A program made the position numbers and the translations under genes. From a virus: a DNA stretch of 20,952 nt. Numbering within the stretch: position 1 is the first letter of the stretch; the number at the start of each line of letters is the position of its first letter. Shown here in pieces: positions 1,977 to 16,241 of this stretch. Location: the IMG/VR virus record IMGVR_UViG_3300025164_000687, positions 1-20,952 of that record; one strand, given 5' to 3'. The notes under the pieces are model-generated. The model saw nothing but the letters and a program-made list of their open reading frames with translations. It was not told where the DNA came from and did not search any database.

Positions 1977-2188
1977 ATATAATAGCTGCTAAAACAAGTG
2001 ATCATACTTTACCCAAATTATCTAAAGCATTTGGACCGAAAGAAATATCGATAAAGAACTATACTGGAGAATCTCTTATATTTTTTACAATAGATGATGC
2101 TAAAAAACATATAAATGATTTACCGGAATTTTATAGAGAAATTTTATCAGTATTTGAAATTACCGCGGAAGTAACTAAAGAGGTGTAA
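1961..2188 (+). CDS. hypothetical protein
   Basis: 75 residues; the start is supported by AAGGTG (1947-1952), 8 bases ahead. Alternating hydrophobic strands and a DDAKKHINDLPE helix resemble small alpha/beta phage proteins that record a strand-helix-strand fold. The first 16 bases of the gene form a perfect palindrome (see the repeat at 1961-1976). No family assigned. Confidence 0.62.
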   Translation: MQYIAYIIAAKTSDHTLPKLSKAFGPKEISIKNYTGESLIFFTIDDAKKHINDLPEFYREILSVFEITAEVTKEV

Positions 2189-2197
2189 TTACTATAT

Positions 2198-2530: not shown

Positions 2531-3132
2531 CAAAGAGACCATCAACAATTTGGGAAGGTAATGATAATGATCTATTAGACTGGCTTCCAGAATTCTCCTT
2601 GAGAAGAGAAGTAAAAACTATAATAGACGTAACAGCGGGAAGAAAAAGATTCTACAAGAATAATAAATATTCAAATATAGTAAAATGTTTTGATCTAGTT
2701 CCCCAATGTAAAGATGTAGTAAAAGCTGATTTCAGATGCTTGCCAATTAAAAGTAATTCTTGTGAGGTAATCATTTTTGATCCACCGCATATTTCTGAGA
2801 CTGGGAAAAATAGTTTAATAAGCCACAAATGCGGATTTGGCGACAGCGGTGAAGAAAATATATCAAATTTATTCGAGCCGTCATTAAAAGAATTCAAGAG
2901 GATTCTTGTAGACGACGGGGTGATTCTCGCAAAAGTAGCTGACCAAGTACATCGTAATAGCTTTCAAATACAGCACGTAGATTTTATTAATGAATGTCGG
3001 AAACAAAATTTAAGAGTGTGTACAATATTTTTAAAGATAAGAAAAAATAGTATAATGGGGCTGTGGAAGCAAGTTCTTCATCCGCGGAGTTTTAATTGTT
3101 ACTGGATTGTTGTAAGGAAAGGAAAGTGTTAA
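2524..3132 (+). CDS. SAM-dependent DNA methyltransferase-like protein (DPPH motif)
   Basis: 202 residues, Rossmann-type methyltransferase. Motif I is IDVTAG at residues 34-39 (S-adenosylmethionine site), an acidic loop FDLVP follows at 57-60, a DFRCLPI segment at 69-75, and motif IV is IIFDPPH at 83-89. DPPH sits where amino-methyltransferases have [DN]PP[YFW], so N6-adenine or N4-cytosine methylation of DNA is the natural reading, with histidine replacing the usual aromatic residue. The C-terminal block (AKVADQVHRN ... YWIVVRK) matches a recurring phage methylase type. No restriction partner is present, so it probably protects phage DNA or marks it for regulation. An RNA substrate cannot be excluded. 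Confidence 0.7.
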   Translation: MLTKRPSTIWEGNDNDLLDWLPEFSLRREVKTIIDVTAGRKRFYKNNKYSNIVKCFDLVPQCKDVVKADFRCLPIKSNSCEVIIFDPPHISETGKNSLISHKCGFGDSGEENISNLFEPSLKEFKRILVDDGVILAKVADQVHRNSFQIQHVDFINECRKQNLRVCTIFLKIRKNSIMGLWKQVLHPRSFNCYWIVVRKGKC

Positions 3133-3554
3133 TGATTAAAGAGATTAAGAAATTTGTAGCAAACGACGGTAGCGAATGGGTAGATGTAGATAAAGCTACC
3201 CAAAGAGAAGCTTTATTGAAACAAATTGATGAATTATTAAAGCCACTAGGAGACGTACCGCAAAATGACGGATGTAGGTTTGCTAATGGAGAAGGCTATA
3301 TACAGCAAGATAAATTTATAGTGGCGCAAATTAAATTAGATTTGATTAAATTAACTGCTAAGGAGCTAAATGATCCAAGTTGGCTTGAATCAAAAGTTAA
3401 TTTTATGAATCTTGGAAGATGGTTAGATGACTCTGGAAGTCCGCTATATTCAGCTTGGGGTAGATTAATTAATATTGATGATCATGGAAGAGAGTGGGGG
3501 CAGGCATATTACGCATTGAATCCAAGTAAAGCAACATTTATTAAGATTCGATGA
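3132..3554 (+). CDS. hypothetical protein
   Basis: 140 residues from the ATG at 3132, which overlaps the previous stop (TTAATG) and has AAGGAAAG about 8 bases ahead; the in-frame TTG at 3096 is less likely. The N-terminus (KKFVANDGSEWVDVDKATQRE) has the look of a phage family in which a target-sequence strand is followed by a helix. The C-terminus contains a conserved-looking MNLGRWLDDSGSP segment. Function unknown. Confidence 0.65.
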   Translation: MIKEIKKFVANDGSEWVDVDKATQREALLKQIDELLKPLGDVPQNDGCRFANGEGYIQQDKFIVAQIKLDLIKLTAKELNDPSWLESKVNFMNLGRWLDDSGSPLYSAWGRLINIDDHGREWGQAYYALNPSKATFIKIR

Positions 3555-3563
3555 ATAAGAATA

Positions 3564-3569
3564 AGGAGG
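3564..3569 (+). promoter_or_regulatory. strong Shine-Dalgarno deciding a TTG start
   Basis: AGGAGG is the full Shine-Dalgarno core and lies 7 bases before TTG 3577. No ATG or GTG in that frame has comparable support, so the TTG is taken as the true initiation codon. Confidence 0.7.
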
Positions 3570-3576
3570 AAATAAA

Positions 3577-3783
3577 TTGAATAAAGAAACACTAGAGGGC
3601 ACTTTAGAAATCTTTAATAGAATTTGTGATTCGGTTGATGCAAAATTTAGTATGCCGTCGGTATGTTTGGCGTCTCACGATAAACGAGCGGAGTTCATGA
3701 TAGCCAAATCAAATCTAGTAGAAGCTTTAATTGCTACATATAATATGTTAGACGAGGGCAAGGAGGAGAATAAATATGAATAA
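3577..3783 (+). CDS. hypothetical protein, TTG start
   Basis: 68 residues. It starts at TTG behind a perfect AGGAGG. It is a single predicted helical unit (TLEGTLEIFNRICDSVD ... LVEALIATYNMLDEGKEENK). A related-looking helical layout is common in small phage accessory proteins, but no family is recognised. Its 3' end carries the AGGAGG that serves the next gene and overlaps it by 8 bases. Confidence 0.62.
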   Translation: MNKETLEGTLEIFNRICDSVDAKFSMPSVCLASHDKRAEFMIAKSNLVEALIATYNMLDEGKEENKYE

Positions 3784-4102
3784 AAATAATTGGACGATGG
3801 GTGGAAATTCAGAAGAATTATTATACAAAGAAGACCCTTACGATGACAGATTTTATATAAGACCAGTTTACGAATATACAAAAGTTGTTGGATGGAGAGC
3901 GTGTGATAGAAGTCGATCAGATTACCTTACGGGGAATCCGAAAGCTTTATTAGAATCTAGAAACAAAAAGACAGCTATGAAATTTATAGAAAAGAATTTG
4001 AAAGCGGTGGATAAAGCAGTAAAAATCCTTATTCCATATTTTCTGAATCCTTTTATAGAAATCATGACTGATGAGAAGAGAGGCTGGAAATGGGAGAAAT
4101 AA
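3776..4102 (+). CDS. hypothetical protein
   Basis: 108 residues; AAGGAGGAG just upstream makes the ATG at 3776 secure. N-terminal part acidic and aromatic (YKEDPYDDRFYIRPVYEY), C-terminal part basic and helical with a hydrophobic stretch (AVKILIPYFLNPFIEIM), not long enough for a confident membrane segment. No family recognised. The next gene starts inside its 3' end. Confidence 0.62.
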   Translation: MNKNNWTMGGNSEELLYKEDPYDDRFYIRPVYEYTKVVGWRACDRSRSDYLTGNPKALLESRNKKTAMKFIEKNLKAVDKAVKILIPYFLNPFIEIMTDEKRGWKWEK

Positions 4103-4269
4103 AGATTAAAGAAGAAGATATGGAAAAGATAAAAGAATTACTTCGGGATAAGAAAGAACAGGAGTCTTTAAGAATCTGTCCTAGATGTTTATTAGTTCTT
4201 ACAGCTAATATAATCTGGGAAAAAACCAATTGTCCTAATTGTAAATATCATTTCTGCTGTACGGAATAG
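4090..4269 (+). CDS. small zinc-ribbon protein (59 residues)
   Basis: It fills what would otherwise be a 169-base gap. ATG 4090 overlaps the preceding gene by 13 bases and has GAGAGG about 7 bases ahead; TAG is at 4267-4269. An N-terminal charged helix (EEDMEKIKELLRDKKEQE) is followed by CPRC, a short hydrophobic strand, and CPNC with two more cysteines at the end (FCC), a typical zinc ribbon. Possibly DNA- or protein-binding. Not recognised beyond that. Confidence 0.62.
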   Translation: MGEIKIKEEDMEKIKELLRDKKEQESLRICPRCLLVLTANIIWEKTNCPNCKYHFCCTE

Positions 4270-4271
4270 CG

Positions 4272-4757
4272 ATGTCTGGGAAAATAGAACTAACGAGGGG
4301 GCTTTATGCTATTGTGGACGATGAAGATTATAATAAGCTAAATTCATTTTGTTGGAATGCGACCGAAAGAAAACATTTTTCGCATAAAACTTATTATGCT
4401 GTAAGAACCATATATGAGACTAGAAAAGTTGTTTATATGCATAGACAAATACTCGGGGTATTGGTAGAACAAGTGGTAGACCACATTAACAGAAACGGGC
4501 TAGACAATAGAAAAGAAAATTTAAGAATATGCAGTCAATCAGAAAATAATAGAAATCGCGGTAAGTCAGATGTCAACGTAACTGGCTATAAAGGAGTATT
4601 TGTTAGAAGAAATACTAATAGCTATATGGCGGCTATATCTGTGAATAAGAAACAAATATATCTAGGTATGTTCCTCGGGAAAGAGGAGGCCGCGCGGGCA
4701 TATGACGAAGCCGCGAAGAAATACTTTGGTGAATTTGCTAATCTAAATTTTAAATAA
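4272..4757 (+). CDS. HNH homing endonuclease with AP2/ERF DNA-binding domain
   Basis: 161 residues. The N-terminal part (ELTRGLYAIVDDEDYNKLNS) is the usual lead-in of this family. The HNH nuclease spans about 55-95: H57, then VVDHINRNGLDNRKENLR with D70, H71 and N79, then N92. An AP2-type DNA-binding domain follows at 103-160 (GYKGVFVRRNTNSYMAAI ... KEEAARAYDEAAKKYFGE). Such proteins cut one DNA strand or both at a preferred site and spread as free-standing homing endonucleases between genes. Here it is squeezed between two small genes, 2 bases after one and 16 before the next, without a visible intron or interrupted gene. The Shine-Dalgarno is weak, implying low or coupled expression. Confidence 0.88.
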   Translation: MSGKIELTRGLYAIVDDEDYNKLNSFCWNATERKHFSHKTYYAVRTIYETRKVVYMHRQILGVLVEQVVDHINRNGLDNRKENLRICSQSENNRNRGKSDVNVTGYKGVFVRRNTNSYMAAISVNKKQIYLGMFLGKEEAARAYDEAAKKYFGEFANLNFK

Positions 4758-4773
4758 GTTGGAGCGAACAGAG

Positions 4774-5085
4774 ATGATGCAAAAAGATATGAAGGCAAAT
4801 TCGTATTTACTAAATTCTCAGTTAAAAGTAGTATACCTAGTAGGAACAGCCACGTGTGACGGAAATAGTGTTAAAAGTATTCATAAAACTTATGAGGGGG
4901 CACTAAATGCTTGGAATAGTGAAAAATTACGATTAATAGCTGGGCACAGAACGATGATTGAACACGGGTACGATAATGATCGGTACAGTGAAATGATTAA
5001 AAATTTAGAAAATGAGGATCCGGAAACAATAGACAATTATCCACATGAAACACCATACATAGATAAGTTTACTTTGTTAGAGTAA
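4774..5085 (+). CDS. hypothetical protein
   Basis: 103 residues from ATG 4774, selected because GGAG (4761-4764) is 9 bases upstream; TTG 4759 lies before that site. The core (KVVYLVGTATCDGNSVKSIHKTYEGALNAWNSEK) looks like a strand-loop-strand followed by a helix, resembling small phage proteins built to a 'value plus index' alpha/beta pattern. No function can be assigned. Confidence 0.62.
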   Translation: MMQKDMKANSYLLNSQLKVVYLVGTATCDGNSVKSIHKTYEGALNAWNSEKLRLIAGHRTMIEHGYDNDRYSEMIKNLENEDPETIDNYPHETPYIDKFTLLE

Positions 5086-5090
5086 GCTAC

Positions 5091-5285
5091 ATGAGCAGTA
5101 CAAGGAAGAAAATCAGTTATATTAAAGAGCTAATAAATAAGTCTAAAAAATATTTAAGTGACAGCGAAAAAATTGAAAAAATATCTGTAAATAGCGCAAT
5201 TGATAAAGTAAACGGCGGAAGATTGCTAGTAAAAAAAGCATTAGAGTTACTAGAAGCGTTAGAAGCAGAGAAGAAAAGATTATAA
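5091..5285 (+). CDS. hypothetical coiled-coil protein
   Basis: 64 residues, almost entirely predicted helix with many lysines and glutamates; the end (ALELLEALEAEKKRL) has heptad-like leucines. The ATG is 5 bases after the preceding stop and has only a weak upstream GAGTAAG. Function unknown. Confidence 0.55.
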   Translation: MSSTRKKISYIKELINKSKKYLSDSEKIEKISVNSAIDKVNGGRLLVKKALELLEALEAEKKRL

Positions 5286-5302
5286 AAGAGTGAGGAAGAC
5301 AA

Positions 5303-5452
5303 ATGAAAAATAAACACAAACACGAAAGAAATAAAAGCTGCACCTGTTCTATAAGCGGGCTAGAGCCAGATGATGATTGTCCATTACATTCTGGAGGAGA
5401 GTGGCCACCGAGATGTGTGTTTTGCGGAAGATTTATGAAATGGAGAAAATAA
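5303..5452 (+). CDS. small cysteine/histidine-rich protein (49 residues)
   Basis: It fills the gap between 5285 and 5453. ATG 5303 follows GAGGAAG by 4-5 bases; TAA is at 5450-5452. The pattern CTC ... EPDDDCPLHS ... PPRCVFCGRFM gives up to six metal ligands and matches a recurring phage microprotein layout (CTC-x-EPDxDCPxH, then CxxCGRFM). Probably a zinc-binding fold. The stop overlaps the Shine-Dalgarno-to-start region of the next gene with no spare bases. Confidence 0.62.
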   Translation: MKNKHKHERNKSCTCSISGLEPDDDCPLHSGGEWPPRCVFCGRFMKWRK

Positions 5453-5662
5453 TTGAGTAAATCAATAAATAAATTTTGCCCATTCTGCGGCTCAACAGAT
5501 TTGGTACTAGTTAGTGCCGTCGGTGGAAAAGGAATGACACATTATAATGTTTTTCAAATAATGTGCGGGTATTGTAAATCTAGAGGTCCAACAGAAGTAA
5601 CTGAGAAATTAGCGAAATTTGCTTGGGGGCGCAGAGAAACAATAAAATGGAAAAACGGATAA
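5453..5662 (+). CDS. Lar-like restriction alleviation / zinc-ribbon protein, TTG start
   Basis: 69 residues. TTG 5453 follows the previous stop immediately and GGAG (5442-5445) is 7 bases ahead. Layout: FCPFCGSTDLVLV, then a variable stretch, then MCGYCKSRGP, then a helix ending in FAWGRRE. This is the arrangement of the Lar family (CPFCGS ... CxxCGxxGP ... AWNxR). The founding Rac protein Lar relieves type I restriction, but most phage members are uncharacterised, so the function is inferred by resemblance. The WNxR signature is WGRR here. Confidence 0.6.
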   Translation: MSKSINKFCPFCGSTDLVLVSAVGGKGMTHYNVFQIMCGYCKSRGPTEVTEKLAKFAWGRRETIKWKNG

Positions 5663-6312
5663 AAATTTGTCCGAAATGCAAGCAAACAAAAGATACTCTA
5701 GGGTTTTATAAAAACAGATGTTCTCTAGATGGATTGTGTACTTATTGTAAATCATGTGAAAATCTACGAAAATATGAGATGCTGCGAAAACGGGCCAGAG
5801 AACGCGGGGCAGAGCCACAAATTTCAACTCTAGAGGCAAGAAAAAATAGAGAAAACGGAGTTAAGTACTGCCCGTTGTGTAAAGAGACAAAAGATTTAAA
5901 AGAATTCTATACGTCTAAAAATAGTAATTTCGGATTTTCATCTCATTGTATTATTTGTAGTAATAAGTTTAGCAGGAATAGACCGAAAAAGGAAAAGCAG
6001 GAATACTATATGAAGAATAAAGAAAGTATACTTAATGCCCATTTAAAGGCAAGATTTAAAATAACACTAGAAATATATAACGCATTACTAGAAAAACAAA
6101 ATGGGCGCTGTGCCATTTGTGGTAAAACAGCAGAAGAAAACGGGAAACGCCTAGCAGTAGACCACTCACACGATTCCGGAGAGGTAAGAGAACTATTGTG
6201 TGGTACGTGTAATGCCGCAATTGGTTTTTTGAAAGAAGACCCGGAAATTGCACGGAAAGCTTCTATTTATTTAGAAAAGTGGAGGAAAGATGTCGTACCT
6301 AAAAATACTTAA
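5647..6312 (+). CDS. endonuclease VII-like (HNH) protein with duplicated zinc ribbon
   Basis: 221 residues from ATG 5647, overlapping the Lar-like gene by 16 bases. The C-terminal domain (about 136-212) has CAIC at 155-158, then VDHSHDSGEVRELLCGTCN at 171-189, the signature of recombination endonuclease VII, which in T4 resolves Holliday junctions and branched DNA before packaging. The N-terminal half contains two similar zinc-ribbon units, residues 6-38 (ICPKCKQTKDTLGFYKNRC) and 73-105 (YCPLCKETKDLKEFYTSKNS), joined by a basic helix. Duplicated N-terminal ribbons are common in the phage HNH members and probably add DNA contacts. It could act in DNA branch resolution or as a homing-type nuclease. 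Confidence 0.8.
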   Translation: MEKRIKICPKCKQTKDTLGFYKNRCSLDGLCTYCKSCENLRKYEMLRKRARERGAEPQISTLEARKNRENGVKYCPLCKETKDLKEFYTSKNSNFGFSSHCIICSNKFSRNRPKKEKQEYYMKNKESILNAHLKARFKITLEIYNALLEKQNGRCAICGKTAEENGKRLAVDHSHDSGEVRELLCGTCNAAIGFLKEDPEIARKASIYLEKWRKDVVPKNT

Positions 6313-7153
6313 TCTTTATAAGAATCCAGATATATTCTTATTCAAAGAGGTTTGGGCAGATGAGAAATGCCACGGAACAAGTCAAAATATTAGCTATAAA
6401 AATAATCAACTTTCATTTTTCGCCGGCGGGGAAAAGCATGAAAATTTTGTAAATTTATTTAATCAGGAACAATTGCTGGAAGCTTTTAATAAGCTAGGCC
6501 ATCAAGAAATTACTGTTTACGGAGAAGGAGCGGGCGGCAGGCAGCAAGGGATGAAAGATACCTACGGAAGTAAACTAATATTTGTGGCATTTGATGTAAA
6601 AATTGGGGACTGTTGGTTAAATCGCCCGAATGCTGAAGAAGTTGTTAATGTTTTAGGTTTGCAATTTATACCCTATGTAAAATGTTCCACAGATATCACG
6701 GAACTAGATAGAGAAAGAGATGCCCCATCAGTATTAGCAAAAAGAGTGGGGATAACTGAAGATAAACCGAGAGAAGGAATTGTTATAAGACCTCTAATAG
6801 AACTTAGAAAAAATAATGGGGAAAGGATTATTGCTAAACACAAAGGGGAAAAGTTTAGAGAAACAAAATCCCCTAGGCCAGTAGATATGGATAGATTTAA
6901 AGTATTAGAAGATGCACAAAAGATTGCTGAAGAGTGGGTAACACCTGCACGATTAAAGAACATACTTAGCCATTTCCCAGAAGATATCGATATTAAAAGT
7001 ACAGGAACTATTATTAAGACGATGGTTGAAGATGTGAAGAGAGAAGCAGGAACTGAAATAGTATTTTCCGGTGATGCTGAAAAAGCTATTTCTAAATCCG
7101 CGGCATTACTTTTCAAAAAGCACCTTCAATCTAAAATAGGGAGTATAATCTAA
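6290..7153 (+). CDS. RNA ligase (nucleotidyltransferase superfamily)
   Basis: 287 residues; GGAGG (6281-6285) sits 4 bases before the ATG. The covalent nucleotidyl transfer motifs are in order: motif I EKCHGTS with the adenylated lysine K26; motif III VYGEGAGG (77-83); IIIa FVAFDVKIG (98-106); motif IV EGIVIRP (162-168); motif V IIAKHKG (180-186). Such enzymes adenylate themselves with ATP and join RNA ends. The arrangement resembles the Rnl2/DRB0094-like ligases. Motif I reads K-C-H-G, where K-x-D-G or K-x-H-G is usual. The C-terminal ~90 residues are helical and of unknown role. No polynucleotide kinase is adjacent, so the substrate may already have 5'-phosphate ends. Probably repairs tRNA or other RNA cut by host defences. 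Confidence 0.85.
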   Translation: MSYLKILNLYKNPDIFLFKEVWADEKCHGTSQNISYKNNQLSFFAGGEKHENFVNLFNQEQLLEAFNKLGHQEITVYGEGAGGRQQGMKDTYGSKLIFVAFDVKIGDCWLNRPNAEEVVNVLGLQFIPYVKCSTDITELDRERDAPSVLAKRVGITEDKPREGIVIRPLIELRKNNGERIIAKHKGEKFRETKSPRPVDMDRFKVLEDAQKIAEEWVTPARLKNILSHFPEDIDIKSTGTIIKTMVEDVKREAGTEIVFSGDAEKAISKSAALLFKKHLQSKIGSII

Positions 7154-7374
7154 TGAAGTGGCGATACGATTGCGGGGATTATATAACCAGACGTAATAAA
7201 ATTGGCGGGAGGGGGGGAATTGGCGGGATGATTTCTTGGGAAGCAAACTCACTATATTATAAAGCATATGTGTGGGATGGGGGATTTTCAAAGACGTTCC
7301 GCACCAAATATGTGAATGTAGAAACTGCTAAAAAAGCGATTGAAAAGTGGTTGAAGAATAGAAGGGATGAATAA
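7153..7374 (+). CDS. hypothetical glycine-rich small protein
   Basis: 73 residues; start overlaps the ligase stop (TAATG) and GGGAG lies upstream. The N-terminus is basic with a glycine stretch (IGGRGGIGGM), followed by strands with aromatic residues and a C-terminal lysine-rich helix (ETAKKAIEKWLKNRRDE). The glycine stretch is coded by G-tracts that fit a quadruplex pattern (7207-7227). No family recognised. Confidence 0.62.
   Translation: MKWRYDCGDYITRRNKIGGRGGIGGMISWEANSLYYKAYVWDGGFSKTFRTKYVNVETAKKAIEKWLKNRRDE
7207..7227 (+). other. putative G-quadruplex motif on the coding strand
   Basis: GGG (7207-7209), one A, seven G (7211-7217), AATTGGC, GGG (7225-7227). This satisfies four G3 tracts with loops of 1, 1 and 7 bases if the seven-G run is split. 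It lies 54-75 bases inside the 73-residue gene, so it would be present in the mRNA too. Very G-rich for such an AT-rich genome. Formation is not proven. Confidence 0.45.
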
Positions 7375-7955
7375 TGTCTGCAACAAACAGAGGAAGTATT
7401 CGTAGAAAAGACGATGACTACCAAACTCCACTGTGGGCAATAGAACTAATTGTTCAACGTTTCAATATGACTGGAAAAGTAATTCTAGAACCTGCTGTTG
7501 GAAGTGGGAATATTGTACAAGTTATTAAAAAGTATTATCCAAAGAATTATGGAATATACGGAGTAGACATTAATCAAGAATATATAACAAATGCTGTTGA
7601 GAATTTAAAAATTCTCGCGGAGTGTGGAGATTATATAACGCAGCCAAAATATGCGGATACAATTTGGCCCGATCCAGATATTATTATTACTAATCCGCCA
7701 TATTCTCTAGCACTAGACTTTATTACTAAAAGTTTAGAAATAGTAAAACCCGGCGGATTAGTAATCATGCTTTTGAGATTGTCTTTTCTCGAAAGTAAGA
7801 AGAGAAAAGAATTCCATCAATATAATCCAGTAGATTCAATCTATGTATTATCTGAAAGGCCATCATTCACAGGTGATGGAACAGATGCGTGTTCATACGC
7901 TTGGTTTGTCTGGAGACGAGGCAACAAAGAAGCAAAGAATATTTTCGTAGTATAG
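7374..7955 (+). CDS. DNA N6-adenine methyltransferase-like protein
   Basis: 193 residues; start overlaps the preceding stop (TAATG). N-terminal DDYQTPLWA (13-22) is typical of phage adenine methylases. Motif I is EPAVGSGN (39-46, S-adenosylmethionine), motif IV is TNPPY (106-110, catalytic), and the tail has DACSYAWFVW (171-180). The organisation is that of gamma-type amino-methyltransferases. It would methylate adenine in phage or host DNA; no cognate restriction enzyme is present, so it is an orphan methylase. It is the second methylase in this operon and is unlike the first in its catalytic motif. Confidence 0.8.
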   Translation: MSATNRGSIRRKDDDYQTPLWAIELIVQRFNMTGKVILEPAVGSGNIVQVIKKYYPKNYGIYGVDINQEYITNAVENLKILAECGDYITQPKYADTIWPDPDIIITNPPYSLALDFITKSLEIVKPGGLVIMLLRLSFLESKKRKEFHQYNPVDSIYVLSERPSFTGDGTDACSYAWFVWRRGNKEAKNIFVV

Positions 7956-7965
7956 GAGAATTTAA

Positions 7966-8373
7966 ATGAATTTGAACGAGACTATAAAAAAGATTAAAGA
8001 GTTGGATATTGAAAAGGAAAGCTTGTGTGCTAAATGTTCTTTTGAATATCCTTTGCCACAATCGCATTCATTCGATATTAATATAAGTTTAAAAAAATTA
8101 TATGCCGGCTATAGTGGTAAACAGGTTTTAGATTTTAGAGTAATAAGATATTTTCAATGCATCCCGGGAGGAAGTGAAGAAATTTCAATAGGTGATTTAG
8201 ATACAAGTGCGGTTAAAAAAGTATTAAAGATAAAGAAAGAAATGGAAGACTGGGCGGAAGGAAATAGAGAAAATCCGCCTAAAGGATATCGTACACTTGA
8301 AGATACATTAAGGAGTGTATCAGCTAATACGAAAAAATTTCGAAAAGAAATAGACGAGCTTACAAAATACTAG
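7966..8373 (+). CDS. hypothetical protein, last gene of early operon
   Basis: 135 residues; AGGAG (7954-7958) is 7 bases ahead of the ATG. N-terminal helix, then CAKC near residue 21, a strand-rich middle (FDFRV-like: LDFRVIRYFQCIPGG) and a basic helical tail. Only one CxxC, so zinc binding is uncertain. Function unknown. Its stop codon overlaps that of the convergent minus-strand gene. Confidence 0.62.
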   Translation: MNLNETIKKIKELDIEKESLCAKCSFEYPLPQSHSFDINISLKKLYAGYSGKQVLDFRVIRYFQCIPGGSEEISIGDLDTSAVKKVLKIKKEMEDWAEGNRENPPKGYRTLEDTLRSVSANTKKFRKEIDELTKY

Positions 8374-8669
8374 TAATCAAATTTTTTATCGGGGTGAATT
8401 TCAAAATTAACTATTTGTTTATCAGGAGATACTACAAATCTAGCCAACCCTAGTTTTAATAGTTTTCTAAGAACCACCTCTATATTTTCCGCATCCATAT
8501 CCTGAAACTGCGGGTCAGTAGAAGCCATTTTCTTAGCTGTAATCTTCAACATGGCGTCTACTAATTCCTTCACATCTTTATCAAAGTCATCTTCCGGAAA
8601 ACCTATATAAAAAGGATTTCCGTCATTTTCTTCCGCTAGGCCGAATATTTTATCAGTATTTTTAATCAT
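8370..8669 (-). CDS. acidic hypothetical protein paired with the exported protease
   Basis: 99 residues; ATG directly abuts the protease stop (TAAATG) and AGGAG (8678-8682) lies 8 bases ahead, so the two genes are co-transcribed and probably coupled. Acidic N-terminus (GFPEDDFDKDVKE), two or three predicted amphipathic helices (ELVDAMLKITAKKM, VVLRKLLKLGLARFVV) and a strand at the end. No signal peptide, so it would stay in the cytoplasm while the protease is exported. A regulator or inhibitor is conceivable from the pairing but nothing in the sequence shows it. Confidence 0.62.
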   Translation of the reverse strand: MIKNTDKIFGLAEENDGNPFYIGFPEDDFDKDVKELVDAMLKITAKKMASTDPQFQDMDAENIEVVLRKLLKLGLARFVVSPDKQIVNFEIHPDKKFDY

Positions 8670-9446
8670 TTATTTAACTCCTAGTAACGGGACACTTTCT
8701 TCGATTCGAAGTATAAATTTTTGATTAATTTCTACAATCCATTTTTCAAGATTGGAGGAAGGAATAATAAATCCAATATGGGTGATAGCTTGACCTTTAT
8801 ATGTCCTAACCATATCTACTAATCCCACCAGTTTTCCACTTTTTGTCCACACACCGCCATCGGAGTCCCCAAAGAAAATATCAGCAGAGATTCTCCAGCA
8901 ATTTATTCCCATAATGCTCTGATCAATTTGTTGAATCATTCCAGCAGTTACTGTTGGATTTTCACCTGTTGGGCAACCAACTGCATAGCATTCATCTATT
9001 ACACTTATTTCATTTAAATCTGCAAATTCAGCAACCGGATAAACTTTTTCGGATTGAAGCTTAAGAGTAGCTAAATCTTGTTCCTTATTATACCAAAGTG
9101 TATATGCTATAAGTGTTTCCGAGATTACTATATTTCTACCATCGTATCGATAAGTAAATACAGTTACAGGGAGTATTTTTATAATAGTCATCCCATCTTT
9201 TTTTTCCGCAACCGCGGTATCATCTACTACATGATAATCTGTCCAGATATACGTTTCTACTTTTGAAGTAGCACTTTTGCTTTTTGAATATATAATTACA
9301 CCGCTCCCGGTGCCGCTATTTGTACTTATTTTAACAGTACACGGAATCATTTTTTCCCGTATAGCTTTTTTAGTGTCCTCATCTGAATAGCATAATGAAG
9401 ATACCGATATAAATACAGCGGCGGGAAGTAAAATAAAGCGATTCAT
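8670..9446 (-). CDS. exported trypsin/HtrA-like serine protease
   Basis: 258 residues from ATG 9446, chosen because GAGGAA (9453-9458) is 6 bases upstream and because it exposes a signal peptide; the longer reading from 9506 does not. Residues 1-21 are MNRF plus a hydrophobic run ending LCYS, a Sec-type signal; it is not a good lipobox. Chymotrypsin-fold triad: H72 in TDYHVVD, D124 in KEQDLATLKL, S195 in GDSDGGVW. The active-site motif is GDSDGG where GxSGG is usual. Two cysteines near 153 and 158 and others at 36 and 183 could form disulfides after export. No PDZ domain. Such proteases act in the periplasm, cell wall or medium. A phage copy on the opposite strand suggests a moron gene serving the infected or lysogenic host, or a lysis or exclusion factor. 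Confidence 0.82.
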   Translation of the reverse strand: MNRFILLPAAVFISVSSLCYSDEDTKKAIREKMIPCTVKISTNSGTGSGVIIYSKSKSATSKVETYIWTDYHVVDDTAVAEKKDGMTIIKILPVTVFTYRYDGRNIVISETLIAYTLWYNKEQDLATLKLQSEKVYPVAEFADLNEISVIDECYAVGCPTGENPTVTAGMIQQIDQSIMGINCWRISADIFFGDSDGGVWTKSGKLVGLVDMVRTYKGQAITHIGFIIPSSNLEKWIVEINQKFILRIEESVPLLGVK

Positions 9447-9489
9447 GGCTAGTTCCTCAATACGGTAAAAGCGAAAACTCCCACCCTTA

Positions 9490-9517
9490 ATAATAGAACA
9501 AAACAAATTATGATCAA
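9490..9517 (-). promoter_or_regulatory. predicted promoter of the protease cassette
   Basis: On the minus strand TTGATC (9512-9517, four of six -35 positions) is followed by 16 bases and TATTAT (9490-9495, five of six -10 positions). The predicted start is near 9483, about 37 bases upstream of the protease ATG and leaving room for the GAGGAA site. This would let the cassette be expressed independently of both plus-strand modules. Confidence 0.45.
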
Positions 9518-9523
9518 CGGCTA

Positions 9524-9551
9524 TTGGCAGTTATAGAGAATTGATTTTAGT
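9524..9551 (+). promoter_or_regulatory. weak candidate promoter toward the structural genes
   Basis: TTGGCA (9524-9529, five of six) and TTTAGT (9546-9551, four of six) with a 16-base spacer. A second weak candidate is TTGCCA (9694-9699) with TAAGAT (9716-9721). Neither is near consensus, and a phage-specific late promoter would not be visible this way. They are listed because the structural operon must be switched on from somewhere in this gap. Confidence 0.25.
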
Positions 9552-9575
9552 CGCAATATAGAAAAGAGTTATAGA
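9529..9575. repeat. short direct repeat AGTTATAGA
   Basis: AGTTATAGA occurs at 9529-9537 and again at 9567-9575, 38 bases apart, in the divergent intergenic region. It could be a pair of regulator sites or coincidence. Confidence 0.3.
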
Positions 9576-9617
9576 CTTTTGGATCCCCTTTCCCAAGCCT
9601 ACTAAAAACACTTTTCA

Positions 9618-9631
9618 TACAAAGCTTTGTA
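9618..9631. repeat. 14-bp perfect palindrome, operator candidate
   Basis: TACAAAGCTTTGTA is perfectly self-complementary and lies between the divergent protease and structural transcription units, where a dimeric repressor or activator might bind. One palindrome of this length is expected by chance in a window of this size, so the location carries the argument. Confidence 0.35.
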
Positions 9632-9651
9632 ATCCCACTCCCTGCAAGTAG

Positions 9652-10026
9652 ATGCTACTCAACAGTGTGAGTAAAAAATTCGGAATTTTTCCCTTGCCAA
9701 AATATAAGGACAGGTTAAGATTGGCTTTGGAGTATTGGATTCTCTTTCTGCAAAAAAATGCATCGATGGCAAAAACTAAAGAAAAAAGAAAGAAATTACT
9801 ACATCGAAGTGAGTTTATTAGCGATACAATGGAACTCGTGATCGATATGATCGATAGACTTGGTGATCTTACAGATGATAGTATAAGTCTTGGTAAAAGA
9901 CTTGATCCACTTGGCGGAAAGAAAGAATCAGATACTGAAAAATTACATATGGATTTTGACAGTGATATCAACGCAGCACTCGATGAGGCGGAAGAAATTT
10001 TGAATAGACTTGGAGCACTTCCATAA
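9652..10026 (+). CDS. small helical protein, first of structural module (start uncertain)
   Basis: Up to 124 residues from ATG 9652, which has no Shine-Dalgarno. Alternatives in frame are TTG 9721 behind AAGGACAGG (9706-9714), and ATG 9766, giving 86 residues. The part after 9766 is a lysine-rich start followed by amphipathic helices (FISDTMELVIDMIDRLGDLT). The C-terminus (FDSDINAALDEAEEILNRLG) resembles the ends of other genes in this block. No family recognised; it may be a structural, scaffold or packaging accessory protein. Confidence 0.58.
   Translation: MLLNSVSKKFGIFPLPKYKDRLRLALEYWILFLQKNASMAKTKEKRKKLLHRSEFISDTMELVIDMIDRLGDLTDDSISLGKRLDPLGGKKESDTEKLHMDFDSDINAALDEAEEILNRLGALP
9674..9690. 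repeat. 17-bp AT-rich palindrome
   Basis: AAAAATTCGGAATTTTT has 8-base arms around one G. The arms are too close for a good RNA hairpin, so a DNA-binding site is more likely than a terminator. It would lie inside the structural module's first gene if that gene begins at 9652, and upstream of it if the later ATG at 9766 is used. Confidence 0.35.
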
Positions 10027-10364
10027 TGAATATTAATAAGTTTGAAGCTTCTGTAGATTCTCTTAAAGGTTCTATTAACGGATTCAGAGCATCTCTTGTC
10101 AATTTTAAAAAATCCGCGGAAGATGTATTTTTACACATGAGTTCTGTAAGAGACTCTGTTATAAGTATTAAAACGGAAACAGCTTCACATCAGTTTTATG
10201 AAATAGAAGATTTGATGAATTTAACCGGAGAAATGTTTTACGACGCGGAATCAAATATCCGCGATATAGAAATAGTTAAAGATATTCTTTTAGAAGATTC
10301 CGATTTAATTCTAGACATTTTAGATGAGGTGGAAAGCCTAGGCGAAATATTTGCCGGAGAATAA
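10026..10364 (+). CDS. small helical protein with shared C-terminal motif
   Basis: 112 residues; the ATG overlaps the preceding stop (TAATG). Predicted to be nearly all helix, with a coiled-coil-like N-terminal half (KGSINGFRASLVNFKKSAED). The end, LLEDSDLILDILDEVESLG, is similar to the C-terminus of the previous gene. Function unknown. Confidence 0.62.
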   Translation: MNINKFEASVDSLKGSINGFRASLVNFKKSAEDVFLHMSSVRDSVISIKTETASHQFYEIEDLMNLTGEMFYDAESNIRDIEIVKDILLEDSDLILDILDEVESLGEIFAGE

Positions 10365-10367
10365 ATC

Positions 10368-10709
10368 GTGGCCGTAAAGGATTTATTAATAAAAGCTGTT
10401 AAGAAACTTCAATCAATTCAAGATCCGGAATCCACTTCAAAAATTCTCAAAGGTGTTTTGGATGTAGTAAAGATATTAAATAGAGCATTATTAAAAGCTG
10501 GCGGAAAAGAAGCAGAGCTAGGACAAAATATTATGGGAGCAGTAACAGATCTTAAGGGTTATACGATAAGTGCTGTGTATGAATTATCAGCAGACGGCTC
10601 TCAATGGAATACACGCATTACATACGACCCCGACAGATTAAAAAATACTGCTGAAAATATTGGAAGTATTATTCAAAAAGTAGATGACATCGGCTACGTT
10701 GGTCCATAA
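10368..10709 (+). CDS. small helical protein, GTG start
   Basis: 113 residues from GTG 10368, supported by GGAGA (10356-10360) 7 bases ahead. N-terminal helices (KDLLIKAVKKLQSIQDPE; LKGVLDVVKILNRALLK), then a more strand-like part (YTISAVYELSADGSQWNTRI). Unlike its neighbours it looks mixed alpha/beta. No family recognised. Confidence 0.62.
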   Translation: MAVKDLLIKAVKKLQSIQDPESTSKILKGVLDVVKILNRALLKAGGKEAELGQNIMGAVTDLKGYTISAVYELSADGSQWNTRITYDPDRLKNTAENIGSIIQKVDDIGYVGP

Positions 10710-10713
10710 ATAA

Positions 10714-10719
10714 GAGGAG
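10714..10719 (+). promoter_or_regulatory. Shine-Dalgarno deciding a GTG start
   Basis: GAGGAG lies 7 bases before GTG 10727 and fixes this GTG as the start of the 69-residue gene; no in-frame ATG is available near it. Confidence 0.6.
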
Positions 10720-10726
10720 TAATACT

Positions 10727-10936
10727 GTGGGAGATATTACAAGAGATGAAGTTGAACAAATAATAAAAGATAATATAAATAGGATCGAAGATATTTTAGA
10801 CGAAAAACAAAATTTGTATTTTAATGTTTTAAAAGACACCACTGTTGATGAATTGAAATCTTTTAATTCGGAGGAATTGTGGAATGCCATAATTCATTTG
10901 TTTGGTGTAAAAGATAGTCTTAAAAAATTAATTTAA
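10727..10936 (+). CDS. small helical protein, GTG start
   Basis: 69 residues, acidic, three predicted helices (RDEVEQIIKDNINRIEDILD; VDELKSFNSEELWNAIIHLF; KDSLKKLI). The C-terminal half, with SFNSEELWNAI, resembles the ISELKDVGEEELLHAIEKL stretch of the next gene: both read '[D/S]-E-L-K-[S/D]-x-x-x-E-E-L-x-[N/H]-A-I'. This suggests distant duplication. Function unknown. Confidence 0.6.
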   Translation: MGDITRDEVEQIIKDNINRIEDILDEKQNLYFNVLKDTTVDELKSFNSEELWNAIIHLFGVKDSLKKLI

Positions 10937-10950
10937 TATTTGGAATAAGC

Positions 10951-11481
10951 ATGAAATTTGATTCATCAGCACTGGGCGCGGAGTATTCTTTAGCATTAGC
11001 TGGTATAGGTTCAATAAGCGAATTAAAAGATGTCGGGGAAGAAGAATTATTACACGCGATAGAAAAGTTAACTGGAGCAGTTAATAGAAATGTAGAACTT
11101 TGGGATTTACTAAATGAAATAGGTAATTTACTAGATACAAAAAAAGAATTCAATAATTATCTAGAAGTTAATAGACAAGAAGCTGATTCAGTAGAAGGTG
11201 ATTTAACTGGACAAATAGACGATGGTGAGAGGCAAAAACTAAATAAAGCACTTTCACGAATGCGAGATGATAATTTAAGAACACAAAAGGAAGTAGATGT
11301 TATCGATTCTAAACTTGATGGAATGTATAATCAGATTAAAGAAAGATTTGACGAATATAAAATACCGCTGGGAAATACAATAGATGAATCTTTTATAGAA
11401 GATATAAAATTAAAATTAGATGAATTTGATTCAAATATTGAAAATCTTTTAAACGATGTAAGTGATATTCTTAATCCTTAA
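10951..11481 (+). CDS. helical/coiled-coil protein of structural module
   Basis: 176 residues, acidic, predicted helical throughout. The first 50 residues share the ELKDVGEEELLHAI pattern with the preceding small gene, followed by long charged helices (KLNKALSRMRDDNLRTQKEV) and an end (FDSNIENLLNDVSDILNP) similar to the C-termini of the genes at 9652 and 10026. An assembly or scaffolding role is conceivable because it lies just ahead of the terminase, but this is inference. Confidence 0.62.
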   Translation: MKFDSSALGAEYSLALAGIGSISELKDVGEEELLHAIEKLTGAVNRNVELWDLLNEIGNLLDTKKEFNNYLEVNRQEADSVEGDLTGQIDDGERQKLNKALSRMRDDNLRTQKEVDVIDSKLDGMYNQIKERFDEYKIPLGNTIDESFIEDIKLKLDEFDSNIENLLNDVSDILNP

Positions 11482-11497
11482 TCCTTAAAGTATAATT

Positions 11498-12046
11498 ATG
11501 TCTGAAGATTTTGATGGTTTGAGTCCAGATCCAGAAAATTCTAAAAATCCTCTGAATAAAATGTCTTTAGAGGAAAGAAGAGTTCTTGTATATAAATACT
11601 ATCTTCAGAACATACCGCAGGGAAAAATTGCAGAAATACTTAACGTTCATAGAAATACAATCGTACAAGATTTACGACATCTTAGAAAAGGTGGCGCGGA
11701 AGAAATAGTCGGGTTAAGGAAAAAAACCGACGAAGAGGTTGGAGATCATTTAAGTGTATTAAAACACGTAGAGGGTGAAGCACTTATACAATACGAATTA
11801 GCTGGAGACGATAAACCGCTAAAAAAAGGGTATCTTGAATTAGTGTTAAAATCCAGAATGGAAAGAATAGCCCTGGAGTTTAAATCCGGAATTATTCCTA
11901 TCGTGGACAAGAGAATTAGTACCGGGCAAACACCTGTTGATAAGGAATCAGACCTAGTAGACAATATGGTTGATATGAATAGAGATGATATCCTTAAGAT
12001 TCTGGACGAAGTAGAGACGAAGAACAAAAGGTCAAAGACGGGATAA
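11498..12046 (+). CDS. small terminase subunit-like protein
   Basis: 182 residues. An N-terminal HTH spans about 38-63 (IPQGKIAEILNVHRNTIVQD), preceded by a helix typical of small terminases; the rest is helical with an oligomerisation-type central part (EGEALIQYELAGDDKPLKK) and an acidic to basic tail. Small terminases bind the packaging site and present DNA to the large subunit. The assignment rests on the HTH, size and position one gene before the large terminase. No Shine-Dalgarno is visible before the ATG. It could instead be a regulator. Confidence 0.68.
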   Translation: MSEDFDGLSPDPENSKNPLNKMSLEERRVLVYKYYLQNIPQGKIAEILNVHRNTIVQDLRHLRKGGAEEIVGLRKKTDEEVGDHLSVLKHVEGEALIQYELAGDDKPLKKGYLELVLKSRMERIALEFKSGIIPIVDKRISTGQTPVDKESDLVDNMVDMNRDDILKILDEVETKNKRSKTG

Positions 12047-12052
12047 ATAGTT

Positions 12053-12301
12053 ATGACTTCTGTAGAACAAACTGATTTTCTTTACCAGTTATATCTAATG
12101 TACAGTACGGCAGTAAATGATATTAAAAAGTATTATGGAAAAGCTGGCGGGGAAAAATTACAAGAACTAGATGTGAAATATCAAGGTACAGTTACGGATT
12201 TTCTAAAAGATACAGAGATTATTTTAAAAGATTTAGAGCATATAAAAGATGTTGCATTGAAAATCTATCAAGATTCTTGTAAAGAAGTTTCAAAGAAATA
12301 A
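12053..12301 (+). CDS. hypothetical helical protein between terminase genes
   Basis: 82 residues; GGGAT lies upstream of the ATG and its stop overlaps the large terminase start (TAATG), so the two are probably translated together. Nearly all helical (FLYQLYLMYSTAVNDIKKYY; DTEIILKDLEHIKDVALKIY). It could be a terminase accessory or a virion component. No family recognised. Confidence 0.62.
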   Translation: MTSVEQTDFLYQLYLMYSTAVNDIKKYYGKAGGEKLQELDVKYQGTVTDFLKDTEIILKDLEHIKDVALKIYQDSCKEVSKK

Positions 12302-13890
12302 TGACAAATATTGGACAAATAGATGTAGCGTCAAAGTTATTATCTCTTCCAGAACATAAGAGACGCGCCGCGATTATTTTATCATATATAAAAACAGGTG
12401 TTAAAAATGACGAGGATTTAAAAAAACTTATTAAGTATGGATTAGGATTAAATCCGCTCGATAATCATATCTGTAAAGATCATAACTCACCATTTGAAGC
12501 TATCAGCGATCTTTTTTTTGAAAAAAATGATAGGCTTTTTCTCTGGGCGAATCGTAGCGGCGGAAAATCCTGTATTTTCGGACTATCGATGTTTCTAGAC
12601 TCTGTTTTTAAAAAAACTTGTCAGACTAGATTATTCGGCGGGGTAAAGGAACAAGCAGATGGCTGCCGTGACGAGATGCTTAAGATTATCAACGATGCAA
12701 AAATGTTTGACTATTTTTGTAAGACAAGTTCTAAAGGCAAAGTTAAATTTAATAACGACTCCAATGTATTTATTAACTCAGCTTCTCCTCGGCAGGCCAG
12801 AGGACCACACCCGCAAAAATTAAAACTAGACGAAATTGAGGAAATGTCCTTTGACGTTTTTAATGCCTCCCTGTCTCAGCCAAGATCTTCTGATACTATC
12901 CGTTCATCAATTGTTATGGCCTCGACATATCATAAAAGTTCGGGGATGGTAAAATATGTTTTAGATAATATGGCAATCCCTGGCGGATATAAATTATGTC
13001 GCTGGTGCATTCTCGATTCCCTGGAACCGTGTACAGAAGAACATAAATCCACTTGTGATTTTATGGAGAAAGAATTTAATACACCAAATTATGAAATAAT
13101 GAAAAATGCAAAAGGTTTTTATAAATGGGCCGACTGGGCTCACATGTTAAAAACTCTTCCAAAGGATACAATTGAAGTAGAATGGCTATGCAGAAGACCT
13201 GGAACAAGTAACAGAATATTTACTAATTATGACGATACAATAATTGCTAATGAAGATTTAGGCTTCCCAGAAGCAACTACTTGGCTGGGAGTAGATTTTG
13301 GATTTGTTGATCCTTATGTAATTTTACCGATTCAGAAGCATGGCGAGGAATTTTGGGTGATTGATGAGGTTTATTTAGTTGACAAATACGACGATGATGT
13401 TATAAGAGAAGTAATGAAAAAGCCTTGGTGCAAACAAGGCATGACGGCATATCTTGATAGTAGCGATCCGAGAGCGATGAAAAAATGGGTAGATAATGGA
13501 TTTTTATGCTTTCCCGCGACTTCTGGATTAGATGATAGTATTGAGCATGTAAATGGATTAATGAAACCCGCGATGGGAAAACCCAGGATAAGAATTTCAT
13601 CGCGGTGCAAAAATTTGCGTAACGATCTGGTAAGACATAAAAGATTAGCTAGTGGATTGCCAGATAATAAATATGCAAATGGACCAGATGCGTTAAGATA
13701 TGGAATAACGATGGGGGGAATAGAAGGAACAGAATTCTACTATAAAGTGCTGGAAAAGAAACACGGATTCAAACCACAAACAATGGGAAGTTCTCTTATA
13801 AGAATAGCTAATAATCGCTTCAATACTAGAAGATATAACCCTATGAATATTCATAGAATTCCTGGCGGAAATCCCACTTCGGATTACTAG
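12301..13890 (+). CDS. terL: large terminase subunit (packaging ATPase-nuclease)
   Basis: 529 residues. ATPase domain: a Walker A-like NRSGGKS at 84-90, Walker B LKLDEIE at 174-180 with the catalytic acid, and a coupling-type segment MASTY at 206-210. Nuclease domain of RNase H fold: GVDFGFVDP (D332), YLDSSDP (D386) and GPDALRYGI (D463). Between them CRWC ... EPC ... STC (233-252) forms a degenerate cysteine cluster seen in a more complete form in some phage terminases. The protein powers DNA into the prohead through the portal and cuts the concatemer. Length is typical. ATG overlaps the upstream stop, with no own Shine-Dalgarno. Confidence 0.93.
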   Translation: MTNIGQIDVASKLLSLPEHKRRAAIILSYIKTGVKNDEDLKKLIKYGLGLNPLDNHICKDHNSPFEAISDLFFEKNDRLFLWANRSGGKSCIFGLSMFLDSVFKKTCQTRLFGGVKEQADGCRDEMLKIINDAKMFDYFCKTSSKGKVKFNNDSNVFINSASPRQARGPHPQKLKLDEIEEMSFDVFNASLSQPRSSDTIRSSIVMASTYHKSSGMVKYVLDNMAIPGGYKLCRWCILDSLEPCTEEHKSTCDFMEKEFNTPNYEIMKNAKGFYKWADWAHMLKTLPKDTIEVEWLCRRPGTSNRIFTNYDDTIIANEDLGFPEATTWLGVDFGFVDPYVILPIQKHGEEFWVIDEVYLVDKYDDDVIREVMKKPWCKQGMTAYLDSSDPRAMKKWVDNGFLCFPATSGLDDSIEHVNGLMKPAMGKPRIRISSRCKNLRNDLVRHKRLASGLPDNKYANGPDALRYGITMGGIEGTEFYYKVLEKKHGFKPQTMGSSLIRIANNRFNTRRYNPMNIHRIPGGNPTSDY

Positions 13891-13907
13891 AAAAAGGAGA
13901 AACAAGT

Positions 13908-14057
13908 ATGACTCTGGATGAGCTAATGGCAAAGATTCTTGAGATTTTACCAGACGCTGTGTTTGACGATGATGGCCCCGGAGGAGAGATCAGAATTTCT
14001 AGCGGAGTAACTGAAAAAAGCGGTATTTTAGTTCCGCTTAGCGATATAGGGTTGTAA
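13908..14057 (+). CDS. small protein between terminase and portal (49 residues)
   Basis: ATG 13908 has AAAAGGAGA about 8 bases ahead; TAA is at 14055-14057. An N-terminal helix (MTLDELMAKILEILPDAVF) is followed by acidic glycines and two strands (GEIRISSGV, SGILVPL). It resembles the 'LDELxxxLLExFPDA' microproteins found beside head genes in other phages. Role unknown. Confidence 0.65.
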   Translation: MTLDELMAKILEILPDAVFDDDGPGGEIRISSGVTEKSGILVPLSDIGL

Positions 14058-14090
14058 TTACACAAATAAATTCTGCTTTGGGCTATTAGA

Positions 14091-16241
14091 ATGGACTTCA
14101 AAGACTTCATGGACGGCAAACCGCCGCTCAGAAAATTATTTGGGCGGGCAAAAACAGAATCTACTCGTGTAAACGAGGATGGGCAAGAGTATCTATACGG
14201 TACAATTGGTCAAACATGGATGTCGCGGCTTACACGAGGAAGAGAAGGAATAGCCGCTAATCCGGAAAAAACAGCGTATGAAACATTTAGTGATATGGCG
14301 GACGATGCCGGGATAGCATTTCCGTTAAATATTATCAAATGGCTAACAATCAGAACACCTTGGGATTTGATTTGCACCGATAATGAAATAAAAGTATTTA
14401 TTCTTAAAAATCTTAATAACATATGGAGACCTTTAATTCGTGCATGTACCCATGCTTTTAAATACGGCTGGGTGGGAATGGAGAAAAGATTTAGATATAA
14501 TGAAAGAGACGGGAAGTGGTATTACAATAGATTCCTCGATCTTCGTCCGCATGGAAATCAGTTAAGAATTGTTGTTGCAAAAGATGGTAGTTTTAATGGA
14601 CTTATTCAGTATAGCGTTGATGGAAAAGATGTATTCATTCCAAAAGAAAAATCATTCGTATATACATATGATAAGGAATTTGGAAATCTATACGGGAGAT
14701 CAATGTTAAGAGCGGCTTTTAGATACTGGTATAGTGATAGATATTTCTACGATTATCAAGCTATTTACGCAGAGTCAAGAGCAATTTCACCGCTAATTAT
14801 GCGGGCACCACTTGGGAAAACAAAGCGCGGTGTAGACGGGGCTGGAAATGATATTTTAGTAGATAATCTAGATTTAGCACAGGAAATTGGGGAATCTATT
14901 AGAAACGCAACCGTTGTAACTCTTCCAAGTGCCCCGACAGGAACTCAGGGAGTGGAACAATGGAAAGCGGATCCATTAACAACAGAGGGGGAAAAATTCC
15001 CATTTAATGAATCTCACGCGCATTTTGATAAAATGAAAGCGCGGGGAATGGGAGTTCCTGATGAACTATCCCAGGGAGGAAGTGGATCATTAGCAAAGGC
15101 TAAAGAACAAGGCTCGTTCTTTCTTCTTCAAGTAGAGGGTATTCTAGAAGATATTGCAGATCATGCCTTGCAATACATTATTCTTCCCCTGGTACAATTA
15201 AACTTTGCAGAAGACCGTATAGAAAATACAGACATATTCTTTAAGTTCAAATCTCTCAGAGATGACGATAAGCAATTTGCGCTCAGTGTTATGGAGAAGG
15301 CGCGAGAGAAGTTTGCGCCCGCAATTGATATTAAGCCAATTCTTGAAACAGCAAATATTCCTGTTAGCGAGGAATATCTTATTACTAGTGCGAGGGCTCT
15401 TGAAAAGTTAAAGAAAGCTGGAAGAACAGGAGAAGAAACAACTGAAGAAAAACCCGCATTTGGCGGATTAGGGGGAATTGGTGGCGGATTAAAACCAGCT
15501 ACACCGGTTACTCCCAAAGCGGAGGAAAAGCCGGACGAAAGCTTTGGCGGAAGATTAAAAGAAATATCAGCCCCGTTAACAGTTGGGGGAGAAGAAACTG
15601 AAGCACCGTCGGAAACAGCAACAGCAACAGTTGCTGTACCAGAAGTTGCTCCATTAGAAATAAGAATTCCCAGTAATGGAAGAATAAAATTAGGAAACAA
15701 CGGGCATTCTAAAAATTCAATTACGTATGCTTCAAGTCTAAATAGCATACAAAGATCAGCATCTAGTGATTTAGATTTATTTTGGAAAAGTGAATCAGCA
15801 GTTGTTAAAAGTTATTTAGTAGCATTAGGAGCTAATATAGACGCAGCTAAAAGAATAAGAAATGAGTCACTATTTAGTTCTGATAAATATATAGAATTCT
15901 TCAAAAGCTATGCCTTTGAAGCGTTTGAAGCCGGTATCAGAGATACAGCACAGCAGAATAGGGTTGACAATAATTCAATAATTGGTAAAATTTCTTCAGT
16001 GGAATATAGTCTACTGGATAAAAAGTCGGAAAACCATTGTTCAAGTTTTGTAAATAACATTGAAAAAGAAGTTAAAGAAACAGCAATAGATAGCGGGAAA
16101 GTAGCATTAGAATCCGCGGATTATTGTATAATTCTGGAATCAAAACTCGAAGAAACATTTAAACGGAATAAAGTAAATATGCAAACCCTGTTAAAGAGTT
16201 GTTATGAACAGGGTAAAAATTTAGTAAACAAACTGTATTAA
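14091..16241 (+). CDS. portal protein with long C-terminal extension
   Basis: 716 residues. The portal core fills about residues 1-450: YGWVGMEKRF (125-134), a wing/crown region, FGNLYGRSMLRAAFRYWYSD (197-216) and the GSGSLAKAKEQGSFF segment, all typical of the DUF935/Mu gp29-type portals. A Gly/Pro-rich linker (FGGLGGIGGGLKP and following) covers about 455-535, then a 180-residue helical domain of unknown family. Portals form the dodecameric ring through which DNA enters and leaves the head. The tail might be a fused head-morphogenesis domain, as in Mu F-like proteins, but no signature residue was recognised. The Shine-Dalgarno is weak. The preceding 33 bases have no other feature. Confidence 0.85.
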   Translation: MDFKDFMDGKPPLRKLFGRAKTESTRVNEDGQEYLYGTIGQTWMSRLTRGREGIAANPEKTAYETFSDMADDAGIAFPLNIIKWLTIRTPWDLICTDNEIKVFILKNLNNIWRPLIRACTHAFKYGWVGMEKRFRYNERDGKWYYNRFLDLRPHGNQLRIVVAKDGSFNGLIQYSVDGKDVFIPKEKSFVYTYDKEFGNLYGRSMLRAAFRYWYSDRYFYDYQAIYAESRAISPLIMRAPLGKTKRGVDGAGNDILVDNLDLAQEIGESIRNATVVTLPSAPTGTQGVEQWKADPLTTEGEKFPFNESHAHFDKMKARGMGVPDELSQGGSGSLAKAKEQGSFFLLQVEGILEDIADHALQYIILPLVQLNFAEDRIENTDIFFKFKSLRDDDKQFALSVMEKAREKFAPAIDIKPILETANIPVSEEYLITSARALEKLKKAGRTGEETTEEKPAFGGLGGIGGGLKPATPVTPKAEEKPDESFGGRLKEISAPLTVGGEETEAPSETATATVAVPEVAPLEIRIPSNGRIKLGNNGHSKNSITYASSLNSIQRSASSDLDLFWKSESAVVKSYLVALGANIDAAKRIRNESLFSSDKYIEFFKSYAFEAFEAGIRDTAQQNRVDNNSIIGKISSVEYSLLDKKSENHCSSFVNNIEKEVKETAIDSGKVALESADYCIILESKLEETFKRNKVNMQTLLKSCYEQGKNLVNKLY

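Follow-up and report, generated by a model that had tools for sequence, protein, structure and literature searches.

Phage proteases are discussed mostly as head-processing enzymes. Here, we describe a protease lineage of the HtrA/Deg type that occurs in phages with unrelated terminases, with and without an export signal and with nearly the same N-terminal border, a finding that goes beyond the first-pass annotation of the locus. The member under study is encoded in the window, which is the whole stretch of DNA analyzed (an IMG/VR virus record of 20,952 bases). Our preferred reading, to which we assign a probability of roughly 60%, is that the protease gene and the small gene behind it form a moron-like unit of an uncultured tailed phage, in which an exported Deg-type protease would act on envelope proteins and is accompanied by a partner private to this phage.

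A two-gene unit on the minus strand

The minus strand of the window holds a single unit (8370–9446), and all other likely genes lie on the plus strand. Its neighbors are a plus-strand gene (7966–8373) on one side and, on the other, a run of genes for small coiled proteins, which is followed by the genes for terminase, portal, head maturation protease, and major head protein. The window phage is also represented by contigs G001 (25.6 kb) and G002 (28.2 kb), which match the window at 99.97–99.98%. The protease gene (8670–9446, minus strand) encodes 258 amino acids, and its TAA is followed without a gap by the ATG of the second gene, P0001 (8370–8669, minus strand), which encodes a cysteine-free, acidic protein of 99 amino acids (pI 4.7) with no signal peptide; the two-gene unit with a directly coupled second gene, as first proposed, is present. 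A Shine–Dalgarno-like GAGGAA (9453–9458, minus strand) lies 6 nt before the protease ATG, and AGGAG (8678–8682, minus strand) lies 8 nt upstream of the P0001 ATG. We placed the protease start at ATG 9446, which yields the earlier H72/D124/S195 numbering; a longer version starting at TTG 9506 was rejected, because no ribosome site is apparent before it and the signal peptide would end up inside the protein. For both genes, the annotated frame scored better than the five other frames, based on codon usage trained on the other genes of the phage. P0001 and the convergent plus-strand gene overlap by the four bases CTAG (8370–8373), where their stop codons overlap.

Two further proposals, that the unit has its own promoter and that it is an inserted cassette, were not confirmed. 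A promoter-like TTGATC-16-TATTAT is found upstream of the protease (9490–9517, minus strand), but such sites are at chance level in the region (7 found; 8.4 ± 3.3 in shuffles), and no terminator was found at the end of the unit. A search for an insertion scar found neither inverted repeats flanking the unit nor any direct repeats that were convincing, and the G+C content of the pair (34–35%) is the same as that of the neighboring genes; thus, nothing marks a recent insertion. Recent capture judged by composition was likewise rejected, because the composition of the protease gene and P0001 equals that of the phage.

Elsewhere in this phage, homing-endonuclease-like genes (HNH and LAGLIDADG, recognized by eye) are scattered among the phage genes, both in the window (4272–4757 and 5623–6312, plus strand) and in contig L007 (3206–4408 and 9244–10104, minus strand). 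Downstream of the window, L007 encodes many small acidic proteins (1042–16367, minus strand), interleaved with genes that by eye resemble those of glycosyltransferases and sugar-nucleotide epimerases. This gene content is unusual for the stretch after a major head protein.

Fold, active site, and predicted export of the protease

The protease matched the whole Pfam Trypsin_2 profile (PF13365) over residues 47–209 (E = 3e-13; 51.1 bits, cut-off 27.6), as well as phrog_11383 (E = 2.9e-17) and phrog_9683 (E = 2.2e-9). The DegP/HtrA profile TIGR02037 was matched at E = 3.2e-15, with a score of 56.0 bits that is far below the curated cut-off of 416.2, and the curated NCBIfam cut-off was reached for no Deg family, the others being far below as well. 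By sequence, the best solved-structure matches were DegP-like. An AlphaFold2 model based on a 10-sequence alignment had a mean pLDDT of 77, with only the signal peptide and the C-terminal 20 residues modeled at low confidence; a model folded from the single sequence (pLDDT 31) was meaningless and was set aside. In Foldseek comparisons, the best solved fold matches of the model were Deg proteases, including a DegS structure that lacks PDZ (approximately 22% identity; TM-score by target up to 0.84). No match to a PDZ domain was found in the protein, which stops about 20 residues past the protease domain. In all 15 relatives examined, the catalytic triad lines up with H72, D124, and S195. The protein is an intact trypsin-like serine protease of the HtrA type, consisting of a single domain with the predicted fold, and the fold withstood the structure prediction suggested as a check in the first-pass annotation.

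The active-site motif, GDSDGG, is indeed atypical: the residue after the catalytic serine is Asp in this protein only and Gly in the 15 other aligned sequences. With Asp in place of the conserved Gly, the predicted activity may be reduced or altered. The window also encodes a different protease of the prohead type, as had been noted. This head maturation protease (17117–19309, plus strand) matches phrog_976 over residues 61–193; the product comprises 730 residues, and the rest of it resembles a long charged coiled-coil scaffold. Conversely, the protease of the minus-strand unit matched no profile of a known head protease family in Pfam or PHROGs, and its gene lies outside the head genes.

Among the 34 proteins of the window, only this protease has a strongly hydrophobic N-terminal core (Kyte–Doolittle value of 2.65 over 12 residues; the next best protein had 1.53), and 232 of 20,000 shuffles of the protease reached 2.65 within the first 25 residues. 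The predicted Sec signal peptide covers residues 1–21 (MNRFILLPAAVFISVSSLCYS; 9384–9446, minus strand) and is missing in five homologues (see below). Judging from the sequence, it is probably of the signal-peptidase-I type with cleavage after Ser21, and Cys19 lies in a poor lipobox (Leu at −1). Hydropathy and the alignment with leaderless homologues both point to this signal peptide, and the protease is very probably exported. It had been argued that the enzyme must work outside the cytoplasm; a place outside the cytoplasm agrees with the predicted signal peptide, on which the argument rests, but the necessity does not stand, as five of the eight phage sequences carry no such signal.

A protease lineage across unrelated phages

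A single-sequence scan of viral contigs with the protease returned nothing but copies of the window phage. A search of phage records led to an exported protein of approximately 250 residues in a 595-kb phage genome (L014), and later searches of IMG/VR and phage records, with alignments that grew from two to four and then to eight sequences, yielded L021, L022/L023, L024, L025/L026, L027, and L028. Besides the window protease, there are seven divergent phage homologues, each record with one copy, in which H, D, and S are kept without exception. When the L021 protein was searched against 50,697 phage records, the one match was another member of this family. In the tree, the eight phage proteases were split from eight bacterial HtrA/Deg proteins (support 100/100); the branching inside the phage group was weak, and the window protease, on a long branch, was the member closest to HtrA (81/88). 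Gly-Cys at positions 157–158 is invariant in the phage members, whereas the HtrA rows have Gly-Asn, Gly-Ser, or Gly-Thr. Other features common to the phage group are a His–Asp insert a few tens of residues long and the absence of PDZ domains. The tree and these sequence features place the window protease with the phage lineage, apart from HtrA/Deg, although the order within the lineage is weak. No functional report of any phage HtrA-type protease was found in a literature search.

Some candidates were ordinary bacterial genes in bacterial contigs filed as phage and were left out (H2/H3, degS; H4; H5, "protease Do"; and H13, an HtrA whose neighbors are glnE and ccm genes). H8, an HtrA, was used as an outgroup, and H1, H6, H7, and H10–H12 were not counted. 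The "phages" records CAKLQF020000002.1, MT835589.1, and MW462191.1 are examples of bacterial contigs with DegS or HtrA beside housekeeping genes such as sodB, maeB, and glnE; such contigs inflate the counts of "phage" HtrA proteases.

Among the window, L021, L027, L026, and L022 phages, the large subunits of terminase had no or marginal similarity to each other (best match: E = 1e-6, L027 vs. L022/L014), whereas the proteases of the same phages matched at E values from 1e-8 to 1e-149. In L021 and L027, which have no terminase similarity, the proteases were 68% identical, and dN was 0.25 against a saturated dS of 2.6, indicating purifying selection. Proteases that align where terminases barely do indicate that the protease gene spreads horizontally, like a moron. 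Of all window ORFs, only the protease gene and an RNA ligase-like gene (6290–7153, plus strand) were shared with the fetched parts of the relatives' phages. The latter has its counterpart in the phage of L027 (L051:15538–16464, plus strand; 49% identity, E = 4e-95), and the two phages share it despite their unrelated terminases. The earlier suggestion of a moron gained from this comparison, since, apart from the RNA ligase shared with one phage, the protease is the sole window gene in those parts. The sequence data fit a moron-like accessory gene with a patchy distribution across unrelated phages.

Five of the eight phage sequences (L021, L024, L025, L027, and L028) have no export signal, because they start where the mature window protein begins: the first Met of the leaderless members aligns with the start of the mature protein (MNTKELHEGILYPVV vs. 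DTKKAIREKMIPCTV). A predicted signal peptide precedes the same core only in the window protein, L014, and L022, the last two being from huge phages. The exported genes are oriented against their neighbors, whereas the leaderless genes run along with theirs; the sample contains no more than two independent exported lineages, so the pattern calls for testing and is no proof. A clade of all exported members was absent from the best tree, yet it was not rejected (p-AU = 0.30), so export may have arisen once or several times. The existence of leaderless relatives indicates that the original job of the family need not be in the envelope, and the same core with and without an export signal suggests that a phage can direct the enzyme to either the cytoplasm or the envelope. 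In L025, two small signal-peptide-like proteins (911–1345 and 2909–3334, plus strand) flank the leaderless protease, and the same is seen in L026.

Partner protein, proposed role, and known systems

No credible relative of P0001 was found in Pfam, PHROGs, PADLOC, NCBIfam, solved structures, phage records, or viral contigs, nor among 3380 ORFs around the protease relatives, and none stood beside any of the seven other homologues. Weak matches to designed chlorophyll proteins and to a hydratase model were regarded as noise. The protease–P0001 pair occurs solely in copies of the window phage, and P0001 appears private to this phage as far as the searches reach. This speaks against a conserved two-gene system; the first-pass annotation had proposed such a system and named co-occurrence in relatives as its test, which came out negative. 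Small, fast-evolving partners can escape such searches, which leaves room for a private inhibitor or adaptor.

According to the preferred moron-like reading, leftward transcription would yield both proteins from one message. The predicted signal peptide implies Sec export and a periplasmic or cell-surface site of action: the protease would leave via Sec and lose its signal peptide, while P0001 would stay in the cytoplasm. The mature protease may then cleave or clear envelope or exported proteins to the benefit of the phage. Such a benefit could be the removal or remodeling of surface proteins, including receptors, which would exclude competitors; alternatively, it could be quality control of exported proteins during infection. 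Lysis and host benefit, also listed in the first-pass annotation, fit the data as well as exclusion does. If the exported form does clear surface proteins, it would be a direct candidate for remodeling the envelope or shutting out competing phages, with the leaderless forms as a clean point of comparison.

Other readings need to be weighed against this one. Given the long branch nearest HtrA and the weak deep branches, the window protease might descend from a host HtrA/Deg protease that was captured independently and shed its PDZ domains, with an origin unrelated to that of the other phage proteases; the DegP-like matches among solved structures agree with such an origin. However, the window protein shares Gly-Cys 157–158, the His–Asp insert, and the N-terminal border with the phage lineage, its closest blast relatives are phage proteins (29–31% identity), and its composition is that of the phage. 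No close cellular relative was found either in two pattern-based, non-exhaustive scans of genome contigs, the first of which returned no relative and the second just two HtrA proteins from Planctomycetes, both of which exceed the protease domain in length. We consider a separate capture unlikely. It is distinctly improbable that the Asp after the catalytic serine, unique as it is, abolishes catalysis and leaves a binder, a chaperone, or a decaying protein, since the triad, the predicted fold, and the oxyanion-hole glycine are all kept, and the frame is open in all three contigs of the phage (a contig end cuts one), which differ by a single amino acid (A78V, position 9214).

The family might instead trim structural proteins during virion maturation. 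In L021, terminase, protease, and portal follow each other in a row on one strand, the protease of L025/L026 is near terminase and portal, and phrog_976, the only head protease profile sought, was not found in these contigs, which are short fragments. Against this, L024, L027, L028, and the huge phages carry the protease away from head genes; the window phage already encodes a separate head maturation protease, and its minus-strand enzyme has a predicted export signal and is encoded apart from the head genes, on the opposite strand. We give maturation hardly any weight. In Staphylococcus aureus, the sspABC operon encodes staphopain B (SspB) and, immediately behind it, the cytoplasmic inhibitor staphostatin B (SspC) (PMC4490255). 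By analogy, P0001 might bind the newly made protease and keep it inactive until export, and the gene order, the tight coupling, the size of 99 amino acids, and the missing export signal resemble that operon. Yet no relative of P0001 is found beside the other members: the exported proteases of the huge phages stand alone, and none of the five members without an export signal has such a partner. P0001 also has no credible resemblance to any solved protein, and an inhibitor seems to us quite unlikely. A broader and speculative version, to which we give little credence, is that the lineage changes compartment by gain or loss of the signal peptide and that the exported form here acquired P0001 as a dedicated cytoplasmic inhibitor, a phage counterpart of staphopain and staphostatin with no sequence kinship.

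Compared with known systems, the window protease, for which we prefer the moron-like reading, resembles the periplasmic HtrA/Deg proteases (DegS, DegP, and DegQ; MEROPS S1C): it shares the two-barrel trypsin-like fold, the H-D-S order, and, as predicted, an export signal, and the solved structures closest to its model belong to this group (DegS without PDZ, TM-score by target of 0.84). It differs in lacking PDZ, in having GDSDGG instead of GNSGG and Gly-Cys instead of Gly-Asn, in its His–Asp insert, and in scoring below the NCBIfam cut-offs. Phage trypsin-like peptidases are related through profile matches (phrog_11383 and phrog_9683) or are alike by fold match (for example, the BFVD entries "HtrA protease/chaperone" of Rhizobium phage AF3 and "periplasmic serine protease" of Podoviridae sp. 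ct9P15), and no described function of these was found in the literature consulted. Phage head maturation proteases of the phrog_976 type are likewise serine proteases in tailed phages, but they belong to another family, and the window protease has a predicted export signal. Jep is an exported serine protease on an S. aureus Sa1int prophage, at a site where a related phage carries eta (PMC12554148). By analogy, it is comparable as an exported trypsin-like protease that serves as a phage accessory gene (PMC12554148), although Jep is close to bacterial Spl proteases, lies at the prophage end, and has a Gram-positive host. The sspABC operon offers a likeness of layout and size, in that an exported protease is followed by a small cytoplasmic protein (PMC4490255), whereas staphopain B is a cysteine protease with an established inhibitor.
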